In this document: in pieces, positions 23,748-56,878 of the stretch
How the letters are laid out: each line of letters opens with the position of its first letter
Position numbering within the stretch: position 1 is the first letter of the stretch
Assembly (NCBI GenBank): GCA_025698865.1
Contig: JAILWQ010000003.1
Coordinates: forward strand, 124,001 to 188,000
DNA length: 64,000 bases
Reading direction: 5' to 3'
Source: Erythrobacter sp.
GTDB lineage: Bacteria; Pseudomonadota; Alphaproteobacteria; Sphingomonadales; Sphingomonadaceae
Program-made: the position numbers and the translations under genes
Notes under the pieces: model-generated
Database searches by the model: none
The model's input: the letters and a program-made list of their open reading frames with translations, nothing else
What the model was told of the DNA's origin: nothing

Positions 23748-24701
23748 TCAGGCCGCGCTGGTGAGCCTCGTCTGAGCGCTCACCAGCCGGTCCATCAGCT
23801 TGAGGTCCTTCGCGCCGAGCTGCAGCGCGGCATCGGCCCATAGCTCGGTGATCCGCGTCAGCTCATCCAGTTCGAGGTTGAGCGCGACCTTCATCGCTCG
23901 GCGCGAATTGACGAGCCCGGCGTGCTTGCGCTGCGACTTGCGGATGAATTCGCGCGTCGCCTCCAGCCCCCCTCCATCCTCGGCGAGATGGTGAACGATG
24001 CCGAGATCGTACATCTGTTCCGCCGTGTAGATCGCGTGTGACACGATCAGGCGGTCGGCCATGGCGCCGCCCAGCTTGCGGCTCAGCAATGAATGCGCGC
24101 CCATGCCCGGAAACAGGCCGAACATCATTTCGGGCAGACCGAACGTCGCACCGCGTTCCGCGACGATATAGTCGAAGCTCAGCAAGGCCTCGAACCCGCC
24201 GCCCAGCGCATCGCCCTGCACCATGCCGACCGTCACAATCGGGAGACCGAGCGAGTTGATGTTGCGGTGGAGGATCTGGCAGCAGCGATGACCATAGGCC
24301 ACCAGGCTTTCGCGATCGCGCGCCTCGATCAGGCGCCGGAAAAGGTCGAGATCGCCGCCGAAACAGAACACGCCAGGTGCGCGGCTTCCCAGAACGAGGA
24401 AGTCGAGCGGCACCCTGTCCGGGCCGAACCCGGTCCCGATCAAGCGCTGCCAGCTGACGAAGTCCCGCAGCATCTCGGGATTGAAGCTCGGCCTGCCCTT
24501 GGGCCGCATGAACGTCCAGAGCGTCCGGAAATCGCCATCGTAGAGGACATCCAGCTGTTCCAGTCCGAACAGCTCGTCGGGAATGGCGGCATGGCGCGCG
24601 CTTTCGACATAAAGCTCGGCCTCGTCGGTCAGACCGATGGCGCGCTCGTCGCCCGCACCGTCTTCCGCCGGATAGCTGGTTGCGGTTCTGACCTGTTCCA
24701 T
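23748..24701 (-). CDS. crotonase-fold enzyme resembling the DSF synthase RpfF
   Basis: This 317-residue member of the enoyl-CoA hydratase superfamily is closest by eye to RpfF, which makes diffusible-signal-factor fatty acids from 3-hydroxyacyl-ACP in Xanthomonas. The diagnostic segment VQGDALGGGFEALLSF...GLPEMMFGLFPGMGAHS is present, with Glu171 and Glu191 20 residues apart, the spacing of the catalytic pair Glu141/Glu161 of RpfF. The oxyanion loop is CFGGDLDLF. The long N-terminal extension (about 40 residues before ELFGLEQLDV) is not seen in ordinary enoyl-CoA hydratases. The start at 24701 has AGGGGG 4 nt upstream. It lies 186 nt after the XrtA-locus amidotransferase gene on the same strand, with its own likely promoter. 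Confidence 0.78.
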   Translation of the reverse strand: MEQVRTATSYPAEDGAGDERAIGLTDEAELYVESARHAAIPDELFGLEQLDVLYDGDFRTLWTFMRPKGRPSFNPEMLRDFVSWQRLIGTGFGPDRVPLDFLVLGSRAPGVFCFGGDLDLFRRLIEARDRESLVAYGHRCCQILHRNINSLGLPIVTVGMVQGDALGGGFEALLSFDYIVAERGATFGLPEMMFGLFPGMGAHSLLSRKLGGAMADRLIVSHAIYTAEQMYDLGIVHHLAEDGGGLEATREFIRKSQRKHAGLVNSRRAMKVALNLELDELTRITELWADAALQLGAKDLKLMDRLVSAQTRLTSAA

Positions 24702-24807
24702 TGCGCCCCCTGCAAACCTCGCAGTCACGCCGATCCCTGTATCGAACGATGCTGCGAAGAACCCGGTATTATGCGAGGCTAACGTCGCCGGGGTTACAGT
24801 GGCAATG

Positions 24808-24887: not shown

Positions 24888-26786
24888 TCAGTGGGCTAAG
24901 TCCAAGCGCGCCAAGGACTTTTCGAGCATTAGCAGCTGCCACAGCACCCTGCCGTTGTCCGACCGCCCGGAAATGTGTTTTTCCGCCAGCGCGGCCAACG
25001 CCGACTGGTCGAACCAGCCGGATTGCAGCAGCCGTTCCGAACGCACGATACGGCGTGCCTGATCTGCCAGATCGCCGCGAAACCACGCCGCCAGAGGAAC
25101 GGAAAATCCCTGTTTGGGCCGGTAGAGAATGTCGTCGGGAAGATAGCGCTCCATCGTTCGCTTCAGCAGAAACTTGCCCTGCCGGCCGCGCACCCGCTGG
25201 CGGTGCGGCAGAGTGGCGGCGAATTCGACGAGGCGGTGGTCGAGCAGCGGCTCGCGCGCCTCGAGACCCACCGCCATGCTCGTCCGGTCGATCTTGGTGA
25301 GGATGTCCCCGGGCATCCAGAACTTGAGGTCGGCATATTGCGCGGCGTCGAGACCGCTGCGGGCCGGCGCCCGATCCATCGTCCTGATCCACTCCTGCTC
25401 CGCCCGGTAGGCACCCCGGACGCGCTTGAACCCCTCGCCGAACAGCCGGTCGCGCTGCTCCGGCGCAAGGACCGAGACGGCGCGCGCATATCCCGCCGCG
25501 CCCCCCTCTGCCAGCGACTGGAAGGTGGACTTGGCGCGGAAGGCGCGCGGGGCCCAATCGGCTTTGGGCCAGGCTCTCCCAAGCCCGCCGAACACCGGCT
25601 CGCGAAGGAATTGCGGGATTGCCCCGCGCAGCTGTTCCTCGCGGTGGTGAAACATCTGGCGGCGATAACCGGCAAAGGCCTCGTCAGCTCCGTCCCCCGA
25701 CAGTGCGACGGTAACGTGCTCTCTTGCGAGCGCGCAGACCTGCAAGGTCGGCAGGGCGGAGGCGTCGGCGAAGGGCTCGTCGAAGATCTCCACGAGCCGG
25801 TCGAGATCGGCCATGCGGTCGGGCGAGACTATGCGCTCGTAGTGGTCGGTACCGAAGCGTGCTGCGACTGCGCGGGCATGGTCGGTCTCGTCCGCCTCCG
25901 CAACATCGAAGCCGATCGAACAGGTCGTTACCGGCGCACGATCCGCTTCGGCCATCAGCGCGACCACGCTGGAGGAATCAACCCCGCCCGAAAGGAACGC
26001 GCCAAGCGGCACGTCGGCCACCGTCCGGCTGGCGACCCCTGCGCGCATGTGATGAAGCAGTTCGACCGAAAGGTCGGCTTCGCGCCCGCGCGCGCGGTCG
26101 GCAAAAGAAATGTCCCACCACTGCTGCGGAGGCGCGGGAGCGCGTCCGTGCTCCAGCAGGCGAAAATGGCCGGCGGGCAGCTTTTCCACCCCGGCGATGA
26201 TCGAGCGGTGATCGGGGACGTAGCCCCAAGTCATGTAATCCTCGATCGCCAGCGGATCGATCTGCCGCCGCATGAGAGGATGCGCGAGCAAACCCTTGAG
26301 TTCGGATGCGAAAGCGAGGCTGCCGTCGCTCAGCATTGCGGTGAAGAGCGGCTTCACTCCGAACCGGTCCCGTGCGAGGAAGAGACTGCGCCGATCGCGG
26401 TCGTAGAGCGCGAAGGCGAACATTCCCTCCAGCCGGTCGAGGCAGCCTGTTCCCCAGCGCTGCCAGGCGGCGAGGATGGTTTCGGTATCGCCCTCGGTCC
26501 GGAAGCGGGCGCCCTCCTGTTCGAGTTCGCGCCGCAACTGGCGGTAGTTATAAATCTCGCCGTTGAAGACGATCACCGCGCGTCCGTCCGCCGAATGCAT
26601 GGGCTGCGGCGAGCCTTCGAGGTCGATGATCGACAGACGACGATGGCCGAGGCCAACCCCGTGCTCGGTCCATACGCCCGAACCGTCCGGCCCCCGATGC
26701 GCGAGCGCGTTGCACATCGTCCGGACCCGCTCCGGATCGACCGGCTTGGGCGTGCCGCAATGGAAAAGACCCGCTAATCCGCACAT
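24888..26786 (-). CDS. XrtA-system-associated amidotransferase (asparagine synthase-like)
   Basis: This 632-residue protein has a class II glutamine amidotransferase domain beginning with the nucleophile Cys2 (MCGLAGLFH), with AHRGPDG, RLSIIDL and FNGEIYNY. An asparagine-synthase domain follows, with the PP-loop FLSGGVDSSSVVALM and ALSGDGADEAFAGY. In exosortase A loci this family is thought to amidate a sugar acid or peptide component of the exopolysaccharide rather than make free asparagine. It is the last gene of the ten-gene operon, 16 nt after xrtA. The start is fixed by the requirement for an N-terminal Cys after Met. Confidence 0.92.
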   Translation of the reverse strand: MCGLAGLFHCGTPKPVDPERVRTMCNALAHRGPDGSGVWTEHGVGLGHRRLSIIDLEGSPQPMHSADGRAVIVFNGEIYNYRQLRRELEQEGARFRTEGDTETILAAWQRWGTGCLDRLEGMFAFALYDRDRRSLFLARDRFGVKPLFTAMLSDGSLAFASELKGLLAHPLMRRQIDPLAIEDYMTWGYVPDHRSIIAGVEKLPAGHFRLLEHGRAPAPPQQWWDISFADRARGREADLSVELLHHMRAGVASRTVADVPLGAFLSGGVDSSSVVALMAEADRAPVTTCSIGFDVAEADETDHARAVAARFGTDHYERIVSPDRMADLDRLVEIFDEPFADASALPTLQVCALAREHVTVALSGDGADEAFAGYRRQMFHHREEQLRGAIPQFLREPVFGGLGRAWPKADWAPRAFRAKSTFQSLAEGGAAGYARAVSVLAPEQRDRLFGEGFKRVRGAYRAEQEWIRTMDRAPARSGLDAAQYADLKFWMPGDILTKIDRTSMAVGLEAREPLLDHRLVEFAATLPHRQRVRGRQGKFLLKRTMERYLPDDILYRPKQGFSVPLAAWFRGDLADQARRIVRSERLLQSGWFDQSALAALAEKHISGRSDNGRVLWQLLMLEKSLARLDLAH

Positions 26787-55099: not shown

Positions 55100-56740
55100 C
55101 TATTCCGCGTCGGGCAGGCGGTAGTCGGAGAAGCGTTCGCGCAAATCCTTCTTGCTGATCTTGCCGGTCGCGGTGTGCGGAATTTCGTCGATGAACTCCA
55201 CCGCGTCGGGCAGCCACCACTTGGCGACCCGGCCGGAAAGGAATTCGACCATCTCCTCGCCCGAGCATTCGGCGCCTTCCTTGCGGACGACGAACAGGAC
55301 CGGGCGCTCGTCCCATCGGGGATGGTGCATTCCGATGCAGGCCGCCTCGGCGACGGCGGGGTGGCCGACCGCTTCGTTTTCCAGTTCGACCGAGCTGATC
55401 CATTCGCCGCCCGACTTGATGACGTCCTTGGTCCGGTCGGTCAGCTGGAGCGTGCCGTCGGGATGGAGGATGCCGACATCGCCGGTGTCGAACCAGCCAT
55501 CGGCATCAACCGCGTCCTTGTCCGCCTTGAAGTAGCGCTTGATCACCCACGGCCCGCGAATGTGGAGCGCGCCCGCGGTCTCGCCGTCGCGCGGGAGTTC
55601 CTTGGTGCGGTCGTCGAGATCGACCGTGCGCAGTTCCACGCCGAAGGTTGGGCGGCCCTGCATCATGGTCTTGGCGACCTGTTCCTCGAAGGAGAGGTCT
55701 TCCCAGTTCGCGGTGGGGCCGCCGACCGTGCCGATCGGGCTCGTCTCGGTCATGCCCCAGGCGTGCTGGATCCGCGTGCCGTTGCGCATCAGCCGTTCGA
55801 TCATGAACTTGGGCGCGGCCGACCCGCCGATCGTCGCCGATTTGAGCTTCGGCAGATCCTTGCCCGCCGCGTCGCAATGCTGGAACGTGGCGAGCCACAC
55901 GGTCGGCACCCCGGCGCTGTCGGTCACCCCTTCGCGGTCCATCAGGTCGCATAGCACCGCCGGGTCGTTGACCGCGGAGAAGACGAACTTGATCCCCGCC
56001 ATCGCGCCCGCATAGGGCAGGCCCCAGCTCGCCGCATGGAACATGGGCACCACCGGCAGCATCACGCTCGACGCGCTGAAATTGAAGGCGGCGGGCTGCA
56101 ACCCGGCGAGCGCATGCAGCATGGTCGAACGGTGTTCGTACTGCACGCCCTTGGGGTGGCCGGTGGTCCCGCTGGTGTAGCAGATCATGCACGGGTCGGT
56201 CTCGGCCCCGCGCACCCATTCGTAATTCCCGTCCTGCTCGCCGATCCAGTCCTCGAAGGCAGGGGCGTGCTCGGCGGAATCGAAGCAGATGTAGTGTTCG
56301 ACCGTGGTCCAGCGATCGCGCATCCGGTCGACGATTGGCTGGAAGGCCGCATCGTAGAGCAGCACCCGGTCCTCGGCGTGATTGACGATGTATTCGAGCT
56401 GGTCCTCGAACAGCCGCGGGTTGACGGTGTGGAGCACACCGCCCATCCCCGCGACACCGAACCAGCTGACCAGGTGGCGCGCATGGTTCATCGCCAGGCT
56501 GGCCACCCTGTCGCCCGGCTTCAGGCCCAGCGCCTCCAGTGCCTGCGCCAGTTTCAGCGCGTCGCGGCGGATGCCCGACCAGTCGGTGCGGGTCTCGCTG
56601 CCATCGGCCCAGTGGGTCACGATCTCGCGCGATCCGGCCTCGCGCGCGGCGTGGTCGATCACATGCGTCACCCGCATGGTCCAGTCCTGCATGGCGCCCG
56701 ATGCCTGAGCTCGTGATTGGGTGGGTACTTGGGTGCCCAT
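55100..56740 (-). CDS. acyl-CoA synthetase (AMP-forming)
   Basis: This 546-residue adenylate-forming enzyme activates medium- or long-chain fatty acids as CoA esters. Motifs are the P-loop ICYTSGTTGHPKGVQYEHR, GMTETSPIG, the hinge region DGWFDTGDVG, and the C-terminal catalytic lysine in HTATGKISKKDLRE. It shows PMFHAASWGLPYAG, typical of fatty-acyl-CoA synthetases of the long-chain type found in alphaproteobacteria. The start at 56740 has GGGAG about 14 nt upstream and a GAGAAG run nearer. Confidence 0.9.
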   Translation of the reverse strand: MGTQVPTQSRAQASGAMQDWTMRVTHVIDHAAREAGSREIVTHWADGSETRTDWSGIRRDALKLAQALEALGLKPGDRVASLAMNHARHLVSWFGVAGMGGVLHTVNPRLFEDQLEYIVNHAEDRVLLYDAAFQPIVDRMRDRWTTVEHYICFDSAEHAPAFEDWIGEQDGNYEWVRGAETDPCMICYTSGTTGHPKGVQYEHRSTMLHALAGLQPAAFNFSASSVMLPVVPMFHAASWGLPYAGAMAGIKFVFSAVNDPAVLCDLMDREGVTDSAGVPTVWLATFQHCDAAGKDLPKLKSATIGGSAAPKFMIERLMRNGTRIQHAWGMTETSPIGTVGGPTANWEDLSFEEQVAKTMMQGRPTFGVELRTVDLDDRTKELPRDGETAGALHIRGPWVIKRYFKADKDAVDADGWFDTGDVGILHPDGTLQLTDRTKDVIKSGGEWISSVELENEAVGHPAVAEAACIGMHHPRWDERPVLFVVRKEGAECSGEEMVEFLSGRVAKWWLPDAVEFIDEIPHTATGKISKKDLRERFSDYRLPDAE

Positions 56741-56878
56741 CGCTGTTCTTCTCTCCCGCTGCGGTTCCCGCATTGGTGCGGAAATCCGTTTCCTCGCGGG
56801 GATCATGGCGAGTGCGCGCGCCCTTGGCAATCGCGCAATCCGGCCCTTTTTGCGCGCCGGACTGTCACGAGCCCGCGA

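Follow-up and report, generated by a model that had tools for sequence, protein, structure and literature searches.

An RpfF/DfsA-type crotonase gene beside the exosortase A locus of an Erythrobacter genome and a putative, unlinked GGDEF-EAL receptor

The crotonase encoded at the end of an exosortase A (XrtA) locus in Erythrobacter sp. belongs to the RpfF/DfsA branch (PRK08788 family) and is not an ordinary enoyl-CoA hydratase, a placement on which family HMMs, PDB sequences, predicted fold, tree, and pocket residues agree. The reading that we favor, and consider reasonably probable, is that this protein is a diffusible signal factor (DSF)-type synthase acting through a membrane cyclic di-GMP (c-di-GMP) receptor and that its gene was captured beside the XrtA locus. 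The gene lies in a window of 64,000 nucleotides (contig JAILWQ010000003.1, positions 124,001 to 188,000), which is the whole stretch of DNA analyzed, and window coordinates are used below unless a contig is named.

The crotonase frame is intact on the minus strand, running from an ATG at 24701 to a stop at 23748 and encoding 317 amino acids (aa). A GTG at 24728 is an alternative start, the frame from 24728 to 23748 being open, and the plus-strand frame over 23748 to 24701 is interrupted by stops. The interval 23748 to 24701 given in the earlier note is therefore correct, with the gene itself on the minus strand. The GGGFEA, GLPE, and FPGMGA motifs that the same note listed are all present, and in the alignment Glu171 and Glu191 are the counterparts of E141 and E161 of Xcc RpfF. 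Every one of the 87 RpfF-like sequences aligned for the tree has both glutamates. The note had also taken their spacing of 20 residues as a mark of RpfF, which we rejected: the spacing is not diagnostic because the aligned positions are 20 residues apart in six of six ordinary paralogues of this genome, two of which carry both glutamates (six of the eight other ECH_1 matches in the genome were compared, with L006 and L008 left out). A catalytic Glu pair common to DSF synthases and enoyl-CoA hydratases is described in PMC9864630. Judged by sequence comparison, the pair is necessary but not sufficient for membership in the DSF synthase branch.

Assignment to the RpfF/DfsA branch is carried by several kinds of comparison. 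The crotonase scores 359.9 bits against PRK08788/NF006452 (curated cutoff, 177), a sequence likeness far above chance; the next-best model after the RpfF types is a hydratase at 71.1 bits, and ECH_1 gives 75 bits. The four best PDB sequences are all of the RpfF type (7zq7, 3m6m, 5fus, and 6dgn; 169.9 to 188 bits), and the fifth is an ordinary hydratase-like protein at 58.7 bits. An AlphaFold model of the crotonase (pLDDT of 88.7, with low confidence for residues 1 to 36) retrieved only RpfF/DfsA chains at Foldseek ranks 1 to 12 (TMt, 0.90 to 0.94), ahead of other crotonases. In a quick tree of 93 rows, 87 RpfF-like sequences, among them the solved Xcc and Burkholderia enzymes, part from six hydratases of the same genome with an SH-aLRT support of 100, although the outgroup branches are long and drew a program warning. 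Placement among ordinary hydratases had been named beforehand as the outcome that would speak against a DSF synthase-like crotonase; it did not occur, and the tree groups the protein with RpfF. Finally, the residues reported to line the Xanthomonas RpfF pocket, G85, L136, G137, G138, M170, W258, and L276 (PMC9864630), are all identical in the aligned crotonase. The equivalents of W258 and L276 are W288 and L306, and neither was found at the aligned positions in the six ordinary paralogues, whose C-terminal region aligns poorly. On these alignments, W288 and L306 appear more telling than the Glu pair for RpfF membership. The RpfF equivalog NF053515 (Xanthomonas type) was tried as a membership test and set aside. 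The crotonase scores 210.6 bits against a cutoff of 550, and L066, placed almost on top of 5fus/BCAM0581 by the tree, also falls below it at 183.5 bits, so that this cutoff does not mark all DSF synthases.

The crotonase gene is the last gene of an XrtA locus that is otherwise recognizable from its HMM matches. Directly upstream, also on the minus strand, lies the XrtA/PEP-CTERM amidotransferase gene (TIGR03108; 24888 to 26903, with a real start probably near 26786), followed outward on that strand by exosortase A (TIGR03109; 26803 to 27840; 301 bits, cutoff 208), an XrtA-system glycosyltransferase (TIGR03087; 27797 to 29029), a FemAB-family XrtA-associated protein (TIGR03019; 29047 to 30183), an XrtA-system polysaccharide deacetylase (TIGR03006; 30108 to 31043), and an XrtA-associated ATPase (TIGR03015; 31067 to 32257). 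Beyond these are a possible XrtA-locus outer-membrane protein (TIGR03016; 32270 to 34105, minus strand; a weak match of 23.2 bits, below the cutoff of 90.85) and an XrtA-associated tyrosine autokinase (TIGR03018; 33927 to 35048, minus strand; 193.6 bits, below the cutoff of 230.65). The minus-strand series ends with a chain length determinant (TIGR03007; 34997 to 36517), an XrtA/PEP-CTERM exopolysaccharide export protein (TIGR03027; 36532 to 37239), and two exosortase A system-associated enzymes, a pyridoxal phosphate (PLP)-dependent decarboxylase (TIGR03099; 37354 to 38604) and an acyl-CoA ligase (TIGR03098; 38601 to 40136). On the plus strand are a small acyl carrier protein (ACP) (PF00550; 41238 to 41495; a weak match of 23 bits, cutoff 20.8) and the exosortase A system-associated hydrolase 1 (TIGR03100; 42100 to 42978). 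The claim that the crotonase gene directly follows an exopolysaccharide operon holds for its position, 186 bp past the amidotransferase stop, but the gap contains a separate conserved promoter-like element. The statement that no sensor genes are near stands for c-di-GMP phosphodiesterases, as none of the nine EAL domains or proteins of the genome is inside the window, and no histidine kinase was found among those window open reading frames (ORFs) that were scanned. A suggested link to the ACP module did not gain from the analysis: the ACP exists, but nothing ties it to the crotonase in particular. A gene resembling AMP-binding acyl-CoA ligases lies about 30 kb from the crotonase gene (55100 to 56830, minus strand).

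Outside the XrtA context, rpfF is frequently accompanied by signaling genes. Among the best 80 of at least 552 confirmed relatives in named genomes, 21 loci (L094 to L113 and L116) share the pirin/ZapE side and at least 60% identity to the crotonase gene. XrtA-locus genes are visible in the fetched DNA of 18 of these; the contigs of L105 and L107 end less than 420 bp upstream, and 2.3 kb of upstream DNA is visible in L094 without an XrtA gene. In the other 59 loci of the best 80, no XrtA-locus gene was found within the score limits of the script and up to 10 kb on each side (less at contig ends). Neighboring genes in named loci were taken from a simple ORF picker, and by this count the 59 loci include 43 with a GGDEF-EAL gene and 21 with a hybrid histidine kinase (15 with both, 10 with neither, and 49 with at least one). 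A common N-terminal helical domain is found in 28 of the 43 neighboring GGDEF-EAL proteins. Genes with this domain are convergent with rpfF in 23 of the 28 cases, 21 of them with a gap of less than 30 bp, and the other five (L122, L129, L132, L133, and L135) lie upstream of rpfF on the opposite strand. Where both neighbors occur, the GGDEF-EAL gene is beyond the kinase gene and lacks the shared N-terminal domain. The 21 loci in which rpfF adjoins a hybrid kinase fall among L143 to L172 (Hyphomicrobiales, Rhodospirillales, and others); the one kinase that was scanned, from L143, has HisKA, ATPase, receiver, and Hpt domains in an RpfC-like layout.

The genome under study encodes its own relative of these paired proteins, L178, at an unlinked site (C1:242271-244265, plus-strand frame, about 656 aa from the ATG), followed by mdh. 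L178 matches the rpfF-paired GGDEF-EAL proteins end to end, with 52% identity to that of L114 over 613 aa. The N-terminal pieces of 28 of the 43 paired proteins match L178, whereas at most 3 of 43 match any other EAL protein of this genome, and those matches run through stretches near the GGDEF domain. The GGDEF and EAL domains of L178 are matched in full by Pfam. Its N-terminal domain is modeled as helices (pLDDT of 87) with hydrophobic stretches typical of membrane helices; in the three proteins searched, Pfam matched nothing in this domain, and against the PDB nothing convincing was found, the best hit being ImcA with an E value of 0.18. Invariant R, N, R, and Y residues lie in and near an RNAGR-like stretch of the domain (alignment A2 / L178:271-2265), and they could hold a carboxylate. 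When 20 further XrtA-linked genomes were fetched from the 46 that carry the domain, all 20 encoded a receptor 62 to 67% identical to L178, with mdh adjoining in 19. We regard L178 as the most likely, putative receptor for the product of the crotonase.

The distribution of the two genes across the family is consistent with this pairing. In 119 genomes drawn evenly from the family, PRK08788 exceeded its cutoff in 43, with a wide score gap below (318.7 to 90.2 bits), and a search with the N-terminal alignment placed the receptor domain in 46 at a threshold of 125 bits or more that was set after the scores were seen (gap from 125.9 to 70.7). The receptor occurs in 39 of 43 genomes with rpfF versus 7 of 76 without it (Fisher P of 1e-19, uncorrected for ancestry). 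Within genomes carrying the XrtA amidotransferase, it occurs in 35 of 39 with rpfF versus 6 of 37 without it, and the receptor thus tracks rpfF more closely than XrtA. Wherever rpfF is found 6 kb or less downstream of the amidotransferase gene (30 genomes), the receptor is also present, either on a different contig or separated from rpfF by 190 kb or more. On an amidotransferase tree of 80 sequences (75 family genomes over the cutoff plus five genus members), supported branches allowed 12 independent pairs, of which a mean of 7.1 went in the same direction and 0.1 in the opposite one; the median P was 0.016, and P ranged from 0.004 to 0.22 over pairings. A control GGDEF-EAL protein, called at a threshold of 110 or more that was also set after seeing scores (gap from 111.7 to 98.7), gave 1.0 and 0.0, respectively. 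This control was found in 39 of 43 genomes with rpfF and 41 of 76 without it, again uncorrected for ancestry, an association weaker than that of the receptor. Because the control co-occurs too, shared ancestry contributes part of the receptor signal; being widespread, the protein is also a weak control. Across 176 genomes sampled from the whole order, some of them shared with the family set, the receptor (again at 125 bits or more) was present in 16 of 22 genomes with rpfF and 10 of 154 without it. The exceptions in the family are four of 43 genomes with rpfF and no receptor (G051, G068, G084, and G089) and seven of 119 with the receptor and no rpfF over the cutoff (G010, G014, G044, G047, G064, G078, and G102), which are possible listeners or remnants. 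The crotonases of G084 and G089 (L018 and L037) branch apart from the XrtA-linked clade. The putative fatty-acid signal proposed in the earlier note is supported both by the c-di-GMP or kinase genes beside rpfF in relatives and by this co-occurrence.

The same data bear on the possibility that the crotonase, though RpfF-like in fold, serves as a general acyl-ACP thioesterase, freeing fatty acids for lipid turnover and playing no part in signaling. RpfF enzymes are described as broad acyl-ACP thioesterases (PMC4504480), and a patchy presence in 43 of 119 genomes fits an accessory lipid enzyme, but against such a role stands the association of rpfF with one particular GGDEF-EAL protein, both in gene neighborhood and in co-occurrence, and we regard the role as unlikely.

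Linkage of rpfF to the XrtA locus is conserved but far from universal. TIGR03108 exceeded its cutoff in 75 of the 119 family genomes, which become 76 XrtA-positive genomes with G116, a partial match at a contig end that was left out of the amidotransferase tree. The rpfF gene follows the amidotransferase gene on the same strand within 500 bp in 27 of the 43 genomes that have it and within 6 kb in three more. The 31 XrtA-linked tree rows form one side of a branch, with a single change of label, and because they form one clade, the tree suggests that rpfF was captured beside the XrtA locus probably once. This label count includes L043 and L044, for which the amidotransferase gene lies 5.4 kb upstream of rpfF in G239 and G228, and L038, which was taken to share a contig with L103, where XrtA-locus genes lie upstream. 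However, rpfF is absent from 37 of 76 XrtA-positive genomes and so is not needed for the XrtA system; it is no core component of XrtA/PEP-CTERM systems and no core enzyme of exopolysaccharide assembly. All eight genus relatives inspected have the amidotransferase gene followed by pirin or ZapE without rpfF.

These counts also weigh on a second alternative, that the crotonase makes a building block and not a signal, by supplying or trimming an acyl group used in the XrtA exopolysaccharide or by the ACP/acyl-CoA ligase module of the locus. The position of rpfF at the end of the XrtA locus, the presence of an ACP and an acyl-CoA ligase in that locus, and the adjacency of ligase and decarboxylase genes to rpfF in L102 all lend this idea some weight. 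It fits poorly with the many XrtA-positive genomes that lack rpfF, including the eight genus relatives, with the 59 other named loci, in whose fetched DNA no XrtA-locus gene was found and 49 of which have signaling genes nearby, and with a promoter element belonging to rpfF itself, and we give it a low probability. The broader proposal of a link to exopolysaccharide is plausible, since the position is conserved in the clade of 31 tree rows. Absence from nearly half of the XrtA-positive genomes, together with an own promoter that persists despite intervening genes, argues against a role in polymer assembly, and we consider the crotonase unlikely to be an assembly enzyme.

The promoter-like element became visible only by comparing relatives; a generic sigma-70 scan called no promoter at its position in this genome (24776 to 24805, minus strand). 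In the gap before XrtA-linked rpfF genes, the conserved element consists of an A/T-rich stretch, TTGCCA, 18 bases, and TAgatT, and in most XrtA-linked relatives a GANTC starts nine bases into the 18-base spacer. The crotonase gene studied here has retained TTGCCA-18-TAGCCT but lost the GANTC. Among 44 distinct XrtA-linked upstream regions, the core pattern was found in 22 and a loose pattern in 28 (shuffles, loose pattern: mean of 2.3, maximum of 9), the loose pattern being absent from the remaining 16. Three of these regions (L094, L105, and L107) were counted as XrtA linked by identity and the pirin/ZapE side alone, and leaving them out gives 19 core and 25 loose matches among 41 regions. 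The 113 other upstream regions gave 0 core and 9 loose matches (shuffles, loose pattern: mean of 6.1). The variable base of GANTC is C in 18 cases and G in 10, so that the middle of the palindrome changes and the palindrome itself is preserved. The strict form of the pattern matched 11 times in 838 kb of strand-bases of L094 to L116, every time before rpfF, and the element accompanies rpfF even when other genes intervene after the amidotransferase gene (L010, L043, L044, L106, L111, and L112). As related sequences are not independent, these counts show conservation and not separate origins. The GANTC promoter pattern was found at the receptor gene in none of 20 loci. Promoter activation by GcrA at methylated GANTC sites has been reported (PMC7987155; the extended motif in Caulobacter is YGAKTCK), and by analogy cell-cycle control of the rpfF promoter is no more than a fair guess.

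The missing GANTC is relevant to a third alternative, in which this strain has a genuine synthase that is now vestigial, left over from a DSF system that the genus is losing. Among 13 sampled genus members, this genome is the only one with rpfF, whereas 10 have the XrtA amidotransferase and 5 the receptor. Both this count and the altered promoter raise the possibility that the lineage is losing the gene. That it is already a relic seems improbable to us, given an open 317-aa frame with intact catalytic and pocket residues, a retained TTGCCA-18-TAGCCT, and a receptor with full-length matches to both GGDEF and EAL. An ordinary beta-oxidation enoyl-CoA hydratase located here by chance, for which only superfamily membership and the ECH_1 match speak, is very improbable in the face of sequence, fold, tree, and pocket residues.

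We return to a DSF-type synthase with a membrane c-di-GMP receptor as the preferred reading; the activity, the chemical signal, its binding by the receptor, and an effect on exopolysaccharide are what we infer. DfsA/BCAM0581 is reported to dehydrate 3-hydroxyacyl-ACP to cis-2-enoyl-ACP and then to hydrolyze the thioester (PMC4504480). By the same chemistry, E171 and E191 would dehydrate 3-hydroxyacyl-ACP to cis-2-enoyl-ACP, and thioester hydrolysis by the crotonase would release a diffusible cis-2-unsaturated fatty acid. The hydrophobic helical N-terminal domain of L178 would bind this acid and thereby alter c-di-GMP turnover, with control of surface polysaccharide and attachment as the likely output. 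The synthase gene, under a promoter of its own, would have come to lie beside the XrtA locus, and the receptor gene would have remained at a separate site.

Comparison with known systems places the putative pair close to, but apart from, each of them. The crotonase resembles DfsA/BCAM0581 (5fus) and Cronobacter RpfF (6dgn) in predicted fold (TMt, 0.92 to 0.94), Glu pair, and pocket residues, although it is about 35% identical to them. The genes rpfF and rpfR are described as convergent in Burkholderia (PMC6361424, PMC4504480), and in a similar way rpfF is convergent directly against a GGDEF-EAL gene in 23 of the 59 non-XrtA loci from the best 80. The putative receptor, like RpfR, has a GGDEF and an EAL domain in one protein. 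Unlike RpfR, which is described with FI and PAS domains (PMC6361424, PMC4504480), L178 begins with a hydrophobic helical domain, and Pfam found no PAS domain in it. The RpfF/RpfR arrangement also differs in that here synthase and receptor are unlinked and the synthase lies beside an exosortase locus. Xanthomonas RpfF (3m6m, 3m6n) shares the predicted fold, the catalytic pair, and the pocket residues described in PMC9864630, whereas the equivalog score of the crotonase is far below the cutoff, no RpfC-like gene was seen beside the crotonase gene, and, in contrast to RpfC/RpfG, the candidate receptor has no kinase. A genome search with one RpfC-like N-terminal query, run without a positive control, gave no match. 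DspI, a crotonase described as needed for cis-2-decenoic acid (PMC4504480), is structurally further away (5wyb; rank 46, TMt of 0.74, 23% identity).

Most work on DSF signaling has concerned gamma- and betaproteobacteria. In the open-licence PMC literature, we found no paper on RpfF with exosortase, which does not in itself show absence from print; a search for diffusible signal factor with exosortase matched only work on LuxI/LuxR homologues in Gram-positive bacteria, and RpfF, Alphaproteobacteria, GGDEF, and diffusible signal factor together returned no paper. If the preferred reading is true, many free-living alphaproteobacteria would have their own version of DSF, with a membrane c-di-GMP receptor that is directly testable, and the exosortase A locus would gain a candidate signal. 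More tentatively, and with the balance of probability against it, we propose a third DSF architecture in Alphaproteobacteria, comprising an RpfF-type synthase and a membrane receptor in which an undescribed helical domain is fused to GGDEF-EAL. In Erythrobacteraceae and neighbors, the pair would be split, with the synthase beside the exosortase A locus under a promoter that carries a CcrM methylation site (GANTC) between the -35 and -10 elements, and the timing of signal production would then be set by the replication-methylation cycle, with the signal acting on surface polysaccharide through c-di-GMP. Through a functional GANTC promoter, a quorum signal would be tied to the methylation cycle of the chromosome. 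Under the preferred reading, the seven receptor-only genomes would be candidates for listening to the signal of others. In three Novosphingobium loci (L106, L111, and L112), HlyD-type and ABC transporter genes lie between the amidotransferase gene and rpfF, which may represent an export route or a mere insertion.
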